In this document: one piece after another, positions 13,959 to 18,087 of the stretch
How the letters are laid out: each line of letters starts with the position of its first letter
Position numbering within the stretch: position 1 is the first letter of the stretch
Assembly (NCBI GenBank): GCA_013298715.1
Contig: JAAFIQ010000027.1
Location: 1-38,292 of the forward strand
DNA from: Bacteroidota bacterium
GTDB lineage: Bacteria > Bacteroidota > Bacteroidia > B-17B0 > Aurantibacillaceae
Reading direction: 5' to 3'
DNA: 38,292 nt
The notes under the pieces: generated by a model
The model's input: the letters and a program-made list of their open reading frames with translations, nothing else
The model's database searches: none
What the model was told of the DNA's origin: nothing
Position numbers and translations under genes: made by a program

Positions 13959-14645
13959 GTGAGAAAGAATCAATCAAATTTATCGAACAACGAATGGGAC
14001 GATATTATTGATGCAATGAAATGTTTGAAAAAGAGTAAAAAAGAAAAAAACTGGGATTATTTTGTAGACAAGCATGACAAGTATTCTACGCATCAGCATG
14101 ACGGCCCACATGTAAATGGAGAAGATTTACATATACACAGTAGTTATTACTGGTTAGCTTGGCATCGTAAATTCATTTTAGATTTTGAGGAAGCCTTGAA
14201 AAACGAAGGAATGACAAATGATTTGCCATACTGGAATTGGATAACTACCAGAGAAATACCAAAAGAATTAAAAAAACGCCTTTTCGGCTGGATGAATGTT
14301 TCAAGAGCGGTAAGCCACAATCCGGATAAATTACCAACGAGAAGTACTTTTGATGCTATCGTAAACAGCACTGTTTATGCTTCTTTCGACCTTGAATTGA
14401 ATAACCTCCATGGAATTGTTCACAACTGGGTTGGAGGGGCCATGTCAAACCCTAGAAAATCGCCTAAGGACCCTTTGTTCTTTTTACACCATGCATTTAT
14501 AGATAAAACTTGGGCCGACTGGCAAGCCAAAAACCCAACACGTAATTTTGAAAGTGATATGTTGGAAGCAGAACTTACTCCTTATGATACACTAAAGGTA
14601 AGAGATGTTATGAACATAAATAACCTAGGGTATTCATATATATAG
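13959..14645 (+). CDS. Compact tyrosinase-family type 3 copper protein
   Basis: Predicted binuclear copper monophenol/diphenol oxidase. The CuA site is His39, His60 and His69 (the last in WLAWHRKFILDFEE). The CuB site is His151 and His155 (LHGIVHNWVGG) and His178 (DPLFFLHHAFIDKTWADWQ). LPYWNW at 89-94 is the conserved tryptophan block. At 228 residues it is only the catalytic core, without a signal peptide or a C-terminal shielding domain, so it should stay in the cytoplasm unless a partner exports it. The start is GTG; the text MRKNQSNLSNNEW is the usual beginning of the core, and the next ATG (codon 20) would remove part of the first helix. It is bracketed by copies of the dnaK tail, which suggests it arrived by insertion. 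No caddie protein or melanin gene is adjacent. Confidence 0.87.
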   Translation: MRKNQSNLSNNEWDDIIDAMKCLKKSKKEKNWDYFVDKHDKYSTHQHDGPHVNGEDLHIHSSYYWLAWHRKFILDFEEALKNEGMTNDLPYWNWITTREIPKELKKRLFGWMNVSRAVSHNPDKLPTRSTFDAIVNSTVYASFDLELNNLHGIVHNWVGGAMSNPRKSPKDPLFFLHHAFIDKTWADWQAKNPTRNFESDMLEAELTPYDTLKVRDVMNINNLGYSYI

Positions 14646-14714: not shown

Positions 14715-14746
14715 AAAAAGGCTATACTTATTGTATAGCCTTTTTT
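14715..14746 (+). terminator. Terminator between tyrosinase and convergent purC
   Basis: AAAAAGGCTATAC (14715-14727) pairs with GTATAGCCTTTTT (14733-14745), loop of 5 nt. The purC stop codon (14728-14730, minus) lies in the loop, so the T run for the plus direction is also the purC codons for its last lysines. Confidence 0.82.
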
Positions 14747-15666
14747 ATCAGTGTTTCCATCTCCTCCATCACATTATCGTATGCCATTTTTACAAATTTT
14801 TTGCCTGTTACTTTTTCGTAAAGCTCTATATAACGGTTGCTAATTTCAGTTGTCCATTCATCACTCATGTGCGGTACCGTTTGCCCCTCTTTGCCTTGAA
14901 ATCCATTTTCAATTAACCAACGGCGTACAAACTCTTTGCTTAATTGTTTTTGCTCTTCTCCCCGCTCTTGGCGTTCAGTGTATCCTTCTAAATAAAAATA
15001 GCGGCTACTATCTGGTGTGTGAATTTCGTCCATCAATGTAATTTCTCCATTATAAAGCCCAAACTCATATTTAGTATCCACCAAAATTAATCCCATTTTA
15101 TTTGCAATTTCTTGTCCGCGTGCATACAATGCCAAGGTGTATTTTTCAAGTTGTTCGTAATGCTCCTTGCTTACAATGCCTTGTTTAATAATTTCTTCTT
15201 TACTAATATCTTCATCATGTCCTTCACTTGCCTTGGTAGTTGGGGTAATTATGGGTGTTGGTAATTCATCATTTTCTTTTAATCCTTCAGGTAATGTTAC
15301 ACCGCACAAAGTACGCAAACCGCTTGCGTAGGTGCGTGCTGCGTGTCCAGCTAAGTATCCACGAACAACCATTTCTACCTTAAACGGCACACACATTCTA
15401 CCAATACTCACATTTGGATGCGGACTGGCAATTAGCCAATTAGGAACAATATCGCGTGTGGCATTTAAAAATTGCTCTGCAATTTGATTCAACACCTGCC
15501 CTTTATAAGGAATCCCTTTAGGCAACACTACATCAAACGCACTAATTCTATCACTAGCAATCATTATTAATTTATTATTAGCAATGGTGTATACATCTCT
15601 TACTTTACCTTTGTAGTAAGCAGTTTGTTCAGGAAAATTAAAATCGGTTTTAGTTATTGTGTTCAT
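14728..15666 (-). CDS. purC: Phosphoribosylaminoimidazole-succinocarboxamide synthase (SAICAR synthase)
   Basis: Joins CAIR and aspartate with ATP in purine synthesis. The 312-residue protein shows the family blocks [11 protein letters not shown] near the N-terminus, [60 protein letters not shown] and [14 protein letters not shown]. These are the nucleotide and CAIR binding parts of the ATP-grasp-like fold. Length agrees with the longer form of PurC found in yeast and Bacteroidota (about 300-315) rather than the 240-residue E. coli form. It is a single gene, divergent from the repeat element upstream and convergent with the tyrosinase. Confidence 0.96.
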
Positions 15667-15780
15667 TCACTATTTTTTTGAAATTATTTAAAGTGTTTTT
15701 AATACTTTTTTTTTGAGTGCAAATTGGTTAATTTTTTTGAAATAAGAACTAAAAATTCATTATTCATATAAAATAAGCTA

Positions 15781-15931
15781 CTTCTTTTCGCTCAGGATAG
15801 TGCGGTGGCAACTGGCGATTTGGTGCGAACCCGGACTTTTTTACGCCGAGCAGGGCGGATTGTGCGAAAAAAAAGTCAGGGTTGGCAAATCGCCTTGATT
15901 TTTTGTTTCTTTTTCATCAAGGAAAAAGAAA
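15781..15931 (+). repeat. Palindromic intergenic element, probably an interspersed repeat
   Basis: A GC-richer block in an AT-rich gap. The left arm 15814-15842 (GGCGATTTG ... AACCCGGACTTTTTT) pairs imperfectly with the right arm 15867-15894 (AAAAAAGTCAGGGTT..CAAATCGCC); the loop holds an inner CGCC/GGCG hairpin. A second hairpin follows: TTTCTTTTTC-ATCAAG-GAAAAAGAAA (15906-15931), whose loop can instead pair with CCTTGAT at 15893-15899. No protein is likely here; the reading frame across it is a by-product. It resembles REP or MITE-like elements, but only one copy is in the window. Confidence 0.55.
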
Positions 15932-15951
15932 TTAAAATGAAAAAAAATCTC

Positions 15952-18087
15952 CTACAAATTATCAATAAAATAATTACAAATTTTTTCCATTAGGTGCGCT
16001 CTATCTTTACCCAGCACATTGTGCGCATGACCTGGATATAAATAAAAATCTAACTGCACACCTTTATCCACTGCCTTTTTTTGATATAATAAATTATGTT
16101 GTAACACAACTACATCATCTTGCGCACCATGTATCATTAATAATTTTCCTTTAAGTTTATCCACGTGGTTTAATAAATTATTTGCTTTATAACCATCTGG
16201 ATTTTCTTGTGGTGTATCCATGTAACGCTCCCCGTACATGATTTCGTAATAATTCCAATCTATTACTGGTCCGCCAGCACAACCCACTTTAAATACGCCA
16301 GGGTTAAGTGTCATTAAACTTGTAGTCATAAATCCTCCATAACTCCAACCGTGCACACCAATTCTTGAACCATCTACATAAGGTAAACTTTTTAAGTAGT
16401 TAACGCCAATTAAATGATCTTCCATTTCACAAGTGCCAAGTTTGCGGTGTATAGCTTGTTCAAAGGTTTTGCCTCTAAAATCACTACCACGGCCATCCAA
16501 TGTAAACACAATAAATCCTTTTTGCGCCATGTATTGGTACCAAAGCTCTCCACCCGCCATCCATGTGTTAGTAACCAATTGTACATGGGGTCCATTATAT
16601 AAATAAACTAAAACAGGGTATTTTTTGGTGCTATCAAAATTTATTGGCTTAAACATACGAGCGTGTAACGTAGTTCCTTCATCATTTTTTAAAGTAAACA
16701 TATTCCATTTACCCAAAGCATAAGCCTCAATTGGGTTTGGTGCTTTATAAAAGTTTGATGTTTTGTTTGAAGCAATATTTATGAGCGAATAATCACGTGG
16801 CACATAGCAAGAAGTAAAAATATCAATCACATGTTTAAAATCTTTTGAAATTACACAAGCGTGGTAACCATTTCCTTGAGTAATTCTTTTGTTTACACCC
16901 GTTTTCAAATTAACAACGTACATATCTTGATTAGTAGGACTTTCAGCATTCGCATAATAAAACCCATTCTCACATTTTGCATCAAATCCAACAAATTCTT
17001 TTACTTCAAAATTTCCTTTGGTAAGTTGTTTAATAACTGTGCCTTTAATATCATACAAATACACATGATTAAAACCATCACGGTTACTTTGCCAAATAAA
17101 TTGATTCGGATTTGTGCCTAAAAATTCCATTGCGTGCAATGGCTCCACGTACTTTTCATCCTTTTCTTCAAAAAGTGTTCTCACAAAATTTCCTGTTGCA
17201 ACTTCGTATTCATTTACCTTAAAATGGTTTTGCTCACGGTTTAAAACAACAATGTAAATGTATTTTTCATCAGGACTATAGCTTATGTTAGTTAAGTATT
17301 GATCCTTCGGCCCTTCTGTTTTTACGTAGGTTGTAGTTTTTGTATTTACGTTATAAATACCCACAGTTACATAATGGCTTTTGCCTCCCGCCATAGGGTA
17401 TTTAATGTTTTTATTAGTTGCAGGGTTGGTGCTCCAATCTATGATAGGGTAATCGGTAACATCACTTTGGTCCATTCTGTAAAAGCCCAAAAAATTTCCT
17501 TTAGGGCTCCAGTAAGTTCCTTTATGAATACCAAACTCATCACGGTGAACTGTTTTACCATATACTAAATTATAGTTACCATCTTTTGTAATTTGAGTTT
17601 CAATGCCGTTAATTGAAGCATACAAATTGTTATCAATAGTATAGGCCACATCATCGTTTACAGGGCTTTTATCTGCATTTTCCTTTTCAAGAAAAGAATT
17701 AGCTTTGGTTGAAGAAAGAACATTCGTTAAATAGTTGTAAGCAAATTTTCCTTCACTAGTCGCAAATTCAAAACAATTATTCACATTCTCAATTAAAGGA
17801 AAATTACTCAAGGTATCTGAATTTTGTTTTTTTAATTCTTGATTCAAATTAGTTAAACTAATTGTTTTAAATGGCTTTAAGTCAGAACAATTAAAAAATA
17901 AAATAGCATTGTTTTTTTTGTAAAAGAAATATTTACTATCTGACGTAAATTGCAGGTATTGCAATCTTTCTGGCGCTAAGCTTGTTCTTCCCTTTAGCAC
18001 AGCATCTTGTATAGTAAGCAATTTGTTTTGTGATTGCAATAATCCAACGCTAAAAAAAACAAATAAAATTATTTTAATTTTCTTCAT
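15952..18087 (-). CDS. Dipeptidyl peptidase IV-like S9 peptidase
   Basis: Exported serine peptidase expected to remove Xaa-Pro or Xaa-Ala dipeptides from peptide N-termini. A signal peptide (MKKIKIILFVFFSVGLLQSQ) is followed by a DPPIV_N beta-propeller (about 60-430) with FGIHKGTYWSPKGNFLGFYRMD and FIWQSNRDGFNHVYLYD. The C-terminal alpha/beta hydrolase domain has the nucleophile in GVHGWSYGGFMT (Ser near 582), Asp in IHGAQDDVV (near 658) and His in YPGHAHNV (near 688). Length 711 is normal for Bacteroidota DPP4 (about 720). It probably acts in the periplasm on imported peptides. The gene stands alone, divergent from the DUF5819-like gene, whose 5' region nearly touches its start. Confidence 0.92.
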   Translation of the reverse strand: MKKIKIILFVFFSVGLLQSQNKLLTIQDAVLKGRTSLAPERLQYLQFTSDSKYFFYKKNNAILFFNCSDLKPFKTISLTNLNQELKKQNSDTLSNFPLIENVNNCFEFATSEGKFAYNYLTNVLSSTKANSFLEKENADKSPVNDDVAYTIDNNLYASINGIETQITKDGNYNLVYGKTVHRDEFGIHKGTYWSPKGNFLGFYRMDQSDVTDYPIIDWSTNPATNKNIKYPMAGGKSHYVTVGIYNVNTKTTTYVKTEGPKDQYLTNISYSPDEKYIYIVVLNREQNHFKVNEYEVATGNFVRTLFEEKDEKYVEPLHAMEFLGTNPNQFIWQSNRDGFNHVYLYDIKGTVIKQLTKGNFEVKEFVGFDAKCENGFYYANAESPTNQDMYVVNLKTGVNKRITQGNGYHACVISKDFKHVIDIFTSCYVPRDYSLINIASNKTSNFYKAPNPIEAYALGKWNMFTLKNDEGTTLHARMFKPINFDSTKKYPVLVYLYNGPHVQLVTNTWMAGGELWYQYMAQKGFIVFTLDGRGSDFRGKTFEQAIHRKLGTCEMEDHLIGVNYLKSLPYVDGSRIGVHGWSYGGFMTTSLMTLNPGVFKVGCAGGPVIDWNYYEIMYGERYMDTPQENPDGYKANNLLNHVDKLKGKLLMIHGAQDDVVVLQHNLLYQKKAVDKGVQLDFYLYPGHAHNVLGKDRAHLMEKICNYFIDNL

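Follow-up and report, generated by a model that had tools for sequence, protein, structure and literature searches.

A probable mobile-type interspersed repeat in Bacteroidota with a conserved pseudoknot-like tail

The window (that is, the whole 38,292-nucleotide stretch of Bacteroidota DNA that was analysed) contains an element that we interpret as a non-coding, non-autonomous interspersed repeat of a mobile type, and as a member of a Bacteroidota-wide superfamily defined by its 3' tail. We give this reading a probability of roughly 0.7. As a single copy, the element in the window is ordinary, and it is the shared, conserved tail that suggests recognition in folded form by some machinery. The nearest known kinds of interspersed palindromic, mobile-type repeats are REPINs and MITEs, and the common pseudoknot-like tail is an unusual feature. 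Many intergenic regions of Bacteroidota would then hold one structured repeat class that matches no Rfam family in the loci searched, and the tail provides a specific, searchable handle on it.

The repeat unit extends from 15800 to 15931 on the + strand, as judged from its alignment with a second copy in the same genome (G000:C1:157806-157937; 93% over 132 nt), and its true ends are uncertain by some bases. It begins with a header motif, GTGCGGTGGC (15800-15809), which also occurs, sometimes altered, in the full copies found in the genus. The body is a long imperfect hairpin, recognised by sequence, folding and covariation. Its left arm (15814-15842) reads GGCGATTTG-GTGCG-AACCC-GG-ACTTTTTT, its right arm (15867-15894) has CAAATCGCC as its 3' end, and the apical region between them (15843-15866) varies among the copies compared and is the loop that holds an insertion sequence in one relative. 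By inspection, the arms pair as GGCGATTTG/CAAATCGCC, AACCC/GGGTT and ACTTTTTT/AAAAAAGT, separated by internal loops GTGCG/GG and GG/CA. Each arm measures ~28 nt, the body 80 nt and the unit ~132-137 nt.

The tail, also on the + strand, consists of two helices, S1 and S2. The upstream strand of S1, CTTGAT (15894-15899), covaries with 15916-15921 and is followed by a U-rich linker, L1 (TTTTTG, 15900-15905), a possible third strand against AAAAAG of S2. Covariation also delimits the 5' strand of S2, TTTCTTTTTC (15906-15915), its 6-nt hairpin loop ATCAAG (15916-15921), which is at the same time the downstream strand of S1, and its 3' strand, GAAAAAGAAA (15922-15931). With one neighbouring base, the complementarity of loop and upstream strand extends to CCTTGAT/ATCAAGG. 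Because C15894 is the last base of the big hairpin and the first of S1, the two structures compete at least there.

Folding energies and base composition set the element apart. The + strand folds at -49.3 kcal/mol (z -2.55), a value equalled by 3 of 200 shuffles, and the - strand at -44.7 (z -4.66), equalled by none of 200. The G+C fraction is 0.55 at 15800-15879, as compared with 0.175 at 15680-15759 and 0.225 at 15920-15999. An earlier, sequence-only reading of the window had described an imperfect inverted repeat, a second hairpin (15906-15931) whose loop pairs with sequence upstream, and a composition unlike that of the surroundings. All three descriptions hold, the second with the additional support of covariation in the tail. 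Because body and tail both covary in relatives, a chance origin of the hairpins is unlikely.

The same reading took the element for a mobile or interspersed repeat, and the copy counts show it to be interspersed. The genome of origin (4.0 Mb, 46 contigs) contains, besides the second near-full copy, a 30-nt tail fragment, and a 137-nt query gave full or partial matches in at least 39 of 60 genomes, the genome of origin among them. Those of the matches listed that cover most of the query, at ~71-78%, all belong to the same genus. An exact search of a public genome set for the junction of body and tail returned 18 stretches in 8 assemblies (titled Bacteroidota, Bacteroidetes, Bacteroidia, Sphingobacteriaceae or just bacterium), and with one mismatch allowed the junction occurred in a single genome among 247 sampled from the class, the genome of origin. 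On these results, the body found in the window looks genus-level. The header is similarly restricted: GTGCGNTGGC lies upstream of 15 of 170 tails, versus 2 of 170 on the opposite strand. The idea of a header common to all families was therefore dropped, since GTGCGNTGGC is mostly confined to the family of the window. Phage records searched for the element gave no match; a plasmid record of Persicobacter sp. JZB09 has 41 nt at 92.7% in two places, and one viral contig (L349) carries the tail pattern.

The tail is distributed far more widely than this body. Its consensus, ~40 nt in length, comprises CTTGAN, a U-rich linker and a hairpin with loop N'TCAAG, and it recurs 3' of quite different, unrelated hairpin bodies. 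A covariance model (R1) was made from 38 sequences; the tails used for the first model (38 of 39) had been picked for pairing in S1 and S2. At E 0.01 it matched at least 46 of the 60 genomes, with at least 15 matches in the genome of origin and at least 42 in one relative; at E 0.0001 it matched at least 58 of 247 genomes and at least 34 of 122 genera of Bacteroidota, own genome counted. Ten of the tails in the genome of origin sit in a second family with another body and longer units, which mostly end in GCGGCGACTTGAT and share pairwise similar stretches of mostly ~260-490 nt. An exact complement of at least 9 nt to the stretch before the tail was found upstream of 100 of 170 unique tails, versus 22 of 170 in a reversed control. 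Thus, the sequences differ, and the arrangement of hairpin plus tail is the same. The layout of the superfamily can be written as a header, a long imperfect hairpin body (often GGC...GCC) and the 40-nt tail.

Covariation indicates that the fold itself is conserved. In 95 distinct tails, 94.7% of cells were paired (83.0% when shuffled) and 168 cells were changed on both sides (40.1 when shuffled), a signal that was lost when the partners were slid. The variable pair of S1, the helix between loop and upstream strand, was U-A in 60 tails, A-U in 10, C-G in 9, U-G in 3 and other in 4. Because this set contained tails used in training, the count was repeated on loci outside the model. There, 40 distinct tails were 99.1% paired, with 72 changes on both sides versus 17.8 +/- 3.3 in shuffles. 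These tails came mostly from the phylum-wide draw and were found by a model that contains S2 and the letters, but not the pairing, of S1; some may equal training sequences, and identical rows were counted once. The body covaries as well: over 16 relatives (alignment A3, made from those 16 of 27 body copies that have a short body and an intact tail), both partners have changed in 7 of 23 pairs, in 18 cells as compared with 4.5 in shuffles. All of these statistics against shuffles ignore kinship among the sequences. Wobble pairs read on the + strand were G.T in 44 cells and A.C in 8 for the tail, and G.T in 5 and A.C in 2 for the body, and this excess of G.T points to the + strand, with the tail at its 3' end, as the folded molecule. 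It therefore seems, on comparative evidence, that a folded + strand, either RNA or single-stranded DNA, is under selection. Because the loop N'TCAAG pairs back to CTTGAN, the tail would fold either as a pseudoknot of the H type (kissing-loop-like) or as two hairpins that alternate.

Triple-helix pseudoknots are known from telomerase RNA and from SAM-II and preQ1-II riboswitches. The tail resembles them in its strand order and in having a U-rich first loop beside an A-rich 3' strand of S2, and compensatory pairs are present in both of its helices. It differs in that its loop is fully paired, with no L2 or L3 nucleotides. Since no nucleotides separate S2 from the loop helix, the fold would look like a kissing loop in which every base is paired. 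The position of the terminal G of the linker tracks the number of S2 pairs above a conserved C-G pair: the index of this G equals that of the C-G pair minus one in 47 of 55 tails, with r 0.71, although one length accounts for 34 of the 47. Also, a C in the linker tends to occur where the A-run of S2 has a G, with G opposite 5 of 16 C positions versus 4 of 283 others at offset 1 (Fisher p 2.5e-5), as compared with p 0.06 and 0.41 at offsets 0 and 2. These tests were restricted to tails whose loop reads exactly TCAAG and in which 8 or more of 9 S2 pairs form (60 and 59 tails kept); the C-G pair is absent in 2 of 60 kept tails and the linker G in 3 of 58. Both patterns are only suggestive, because the lineages are few and the cells are not independent. 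S2 and the U-rich linker may form a triple helix, with the linker in the major groove.

Known RNA families do not account for the element. No Rfam family matched the window above its gathering cut-off, and 10 hits around the element, none of which reached its gathering score, were treated as chance; the preQ1-II match is at chance level, with 18.7 bits against a cut-off of 47. When 11 loci with relatives were compared with Rfam, the single match was a Flavo-1 RNA (RF01705, 51.6 bits), which adjoins a tail copy (L067:382-472). A literature search that covered few subscription journals found no published description of the repeat. Pneumococcal BOX and RUP elements are modular intergenic repeats, and the present element shares that modular, intergenic layout; a pseudoknot-like tail is not, to our knowledge, a feature of BOX.

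Evidence for insertion comes mainly from a second genus, g163, in which the tail is frequent (at least 22 in G415 and at least 18 in G306). The 20 copies compared there are similar over hundreds of bases, with a median pairwise identity of 88%, and by eye the consensus of the g163 inverted repeat is GTAGATGTYAGNTAATTCNTTGACAG. One of them (L379) is a 573-bp element with terminal inverted repeats GTAGATGTTACGTAATTC / GAATTAGCTGACATCTAC, flanked by a 6-bp duplication of the target AACGGT. The uninterrupted site is found in G306 (CAACGGTACTG) and G356 (CAGCGGTATTG); the site is also short in G297, G426 and G327, and G318 is uninformative, since a contig break separates the two flanks. The duplicated target and the uninterrupted sites together demonstrate insertion at this locus. 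Other sites were less uniform: at L387, G318 has a short site, and G306, which keeps a relic, and G297 have one of intermediate length; L381 gave a mixed result across relatives; L390 had no syntenic counterpart; and for L391 the right flank lay largely outside the query.

Turnover between species is indicated at a few further sites. Among close relatives, an orthologous gap measures ~656 nt in G006 and ~629 nt in G018, both with tail-bearing repeats; it is short in G007 and G025, and it is 151 nt without a tail in G020. At another orthologous site, the element lies in opposite orientations in G006 and G018, and the g163 unit does the same at an orthologous intergenic site in G415 and G306 (L388/L397), where the target of L397 looks palindromic (GGGTTATCC / GGATAACCC). 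In one case (L386/L394), judged by similar flanking ORFs, the element was apparently kept at an orthologous locus in two species. A host role could be an alternative source of such two-species retention, at L388/L397 as well as at L386/L394. By inspection, several of five islands examined have an inverted tail at the left and a forward tail at the right. In G001, a genome on one contig with dnaA near base 1, nine tails at E < 0.001 divide into 6 head-on and 3 co-directional; this split assumes a terminus opposite, and nine tails are too few for a claim on replication-strand bias.

As for mobility, which the sequence-only reading had offered as a possibility, what stands is the demonstrated insertion of a relative with the same tail module and the few turnovers between species. 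For the short family to which the window copy belongs, neither an empty site nor a duplicated target came to light, and the peptidase loci of relatives have other intergenic DNA. In g163 elements, moreover, the tail is internal and does not mark the element's end, so it need not be the recombination site.

MITEs are non-coding, non-autonomous elements with terminal inverted repeats, and the present element shares with them that it is non-coding, multi-copy, interspersed and non-autonomous. It could therefore be asked whether the repeats are classical MITEs, deletion derivatives of a DNA transposon in which the folded parts are cargo. The inverted repeats, duplication and uninterrupted sites of L379 agree with this, as does an orthologous site with the element in opposite orientations in two species. 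However, inspection by eye revealed no terminal inverted repeats bounding the window copy, what is conserved is a folded tail common to unrelated bodies, and one would not expect cargo to retain covarying helices in tails that many families have in common. We regard the MITE explanation as a credible but doubtful one.

Repeats of the REP/REPIN type, which RAYT (Y1 HUH) transposases would move, were also considered, and the search for a REP-associated transposase that the sequence-only reading had proposed was made. REP/REPIN palindromes with RAYT transposases include GTAG and CGTC families (PMC3733652, PMC6006769), and RAYTs of subclass 2.6, from Bacteroidetes, are reported to have atypical flanking structures with copies elsewhere (PMC6006769). 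Like the present element, REP/REPIN palindromes are short, form hairpins and are probably recognised as a folded single strand. The subclass 2.6 precedent is in favor of such a mobiliser, as are the palindromic, intergenic and multi-copy nature of the element and at least two tails near Y1 matches, one in the genome of origin (G000:C8, 1.7 kb) and one in a relative (G042:C86), at distances of 1.7-1.9 kb. Nevertheless, six genus members (G006, G013, G014, G015, G023 and G024) carry at least 12, 9, 13, 4, 14 and 3 tails, respectively, and have no Y1_Tnp match at E 0.001; G013 is 81% complete and the others 99% or more. Only 1 of 50 loci around Y1 matches (L208) contained a match to the tail model, and by inspection eight genes like subclass 2.6 have other palindromes alongside. 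The unit of ~130 nt, longer elsewhere, falls outside the 20-40 nt of REP/REPIN elements, and its additional tail with loop-upstream pairing sets it further apart. The hairpin foot of the window copy has no GTAG or CGTC tag and reads CTCAGGATAGTGCGGTGGCAACT before the left arm; some genus copies do have ACGTC, but ~21 nt before the foot. A RAYT is thus unlikely as mobiliser, and we judge the REP/REPIN explanation as a whole to be very improbable. As a separate observation, a RAYT-like gene with NHVH and YVHQNP motifs in the genome of origin (L207:2293-2847, on G000:C4) is flanked by its own inverted palindromes, in agreement with what is reported for subclass 2.6.

Another enzyme to be weighed is a reverse transcriptase that recognises the 3' tail of a SINE-like retroelement. 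One 3' tail common to different bodies, and a 5'-truncated copy (G000:C6), would be expected of such an element. RVT_1, however, was detected at E 0.001 in 18 of 60 genomes, and these do not include G000, G006, G018, G020, G025 or G042, which have at least 15, 12, 12, 16, 11 and 42 tails, respectively. A reverse transcriptase is not evidently needed for spread, although one may have been lost or have escaped detection, and the SINE-like explanation appears to us extremely improbable. Nor did gene neighborhoods reveal a mobiliser. Clustering of 519 ORFs near tails, evaluated by inspection, gave no recurrent gene family beside the tails, only repeat-internal, housekeeping-looking or sporadic families, and at 20 g163 loci the common ORFs lie within the repeat or recur at few loci, with no mobilising gene among them. 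Integron attC core sites have the form RYYYAAC/GTTRRRY, and none was seen in a comparison by eye.

The genes around the element in the window raise the remaining alternative, a cis-regulatory RNA or terminator acting locally. On the - strand, an S9 (prolyl oligopeptidase-like) peptidase gene (15952..18087, named by inspection) lies on one side, and a purC-like gene (14728..15666, named in the sequence-only reading and by inspection) lies on the other; both serve as context only. Relative to the peptidase gene the tail is reversed, and it ends 20 nt past the stop codon; the aligned unit begins 133 nt upstream of the purC-like start codon. The sequence-only reading had suggested an action on the 3' end of the peptidase mRNA or on purC. 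A position so close to the stop codon and the better-than-shuffled folding of both strands would suit a regulator of either gene. Yet the tail model found a tail at 1 of 30 peptidase loci, the locus in the window, and at none of the 29 others (one extends only 31 nt past the gene, and a few end soon after it), where by inspection the peptidase gene is followed by other intergenic sequence. The purC-like gene adjoins the peptidase gene only in the window among the peptidase loci compared, some of which end early, and a simple scan of 15600-16000 found no terminator-like site. The repeat is thus not a single copy conserved in place, the finding that would have pointed to a local regulatory RNA; the genome has several copies, and the position is not conserved.

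Gene contexts elsewhere also bear on a regulatory role. Among 109 unique tails, 108 lie outside ORFs of at least 110 aa and one lies inside; for the 85 with both neighbors known, these were convergent in 31 cases, tandem in 46 and divergent in 8. Loci retrieved for other reasons, and tails closer than 400 nt to an end, are not part of this survey, and 23 of its 109 tails have no called gene on one or both sides. The preference for convergent and tandem pairs could be claimed for a regulator, but between tandem genes the two tail orientations are almost balanced (26 and 20). This pattern is more readily explained by insertions tolerated at a distance from promoters than by an oriented regulator. 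With both orientations represented and no terminator-like site, the suggested action on either gene is unsupported, and we consider a local regulatory role quite improbable. Most likely, the copy in the window is an insertion that the 3' flank tolerates and that has no particular function for peptidase or purC. Elsewhere in the window, an ORF at 13959-14645 with a WHR stretch and histidines resembles, by inspection, a tyrosinase-like copper protein.

We therefore retain the interpretation of a mobile-type repeat, and propose how it may be propagated. A trans-acting recombinase or nucleic-acid-binding protein would recognise the tail in its folded state, be it RNA or single-stranded DNA, and so spread or maintain the repeats, although selection on the fold could serve the host rather than mobility. 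If, as the covariation suggests, something recognises a folded single strand, the identity of the recogniser is directly testable. A bolder hypothesis is that the repeats are mobile throughout the phylum and unified by a small triple-helix pseudoknot tail, and that one recombination or RNA-protection system reads this tail in folded form, as RNA or single-stranded DNA, attaches to many unrelated hairpin bodies and moves them in trans; as a whole, we think this rather unlikely.

The repeat class may add to fast intergenic turnover between close species, and also to breaks in assemblies, several copies being at contig ends. Tails within ~400 nt of contig ends occur in G023, G042, G056 and G297 (for example, G023:C10, C14, C53 and C81), as if repeat arrays had caused the assemblies to break there. 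The repeats also receive insertions themselves. In L061 (G001:C1:1264500-1268200), the loop of a body copy holds an insertion sequence at ~1265600-1267050 with ends TCCCGAAAGCTTTCGAATTGGCGTCAAG and an ORF of ~447 aa from stop to stop, apparently for a transposase of the IS4 type. This insertion sequence seems to favor these hairpins, since L068 has a short TCCCGATAACTATCGGGA footprint and L072 a nested case. A second repeat, of the GCACTTGTGCTGAGCCTGTCGAAGCA type, is inserted in tail-hairpin loops in L069, L070, L043, L202 and L154.
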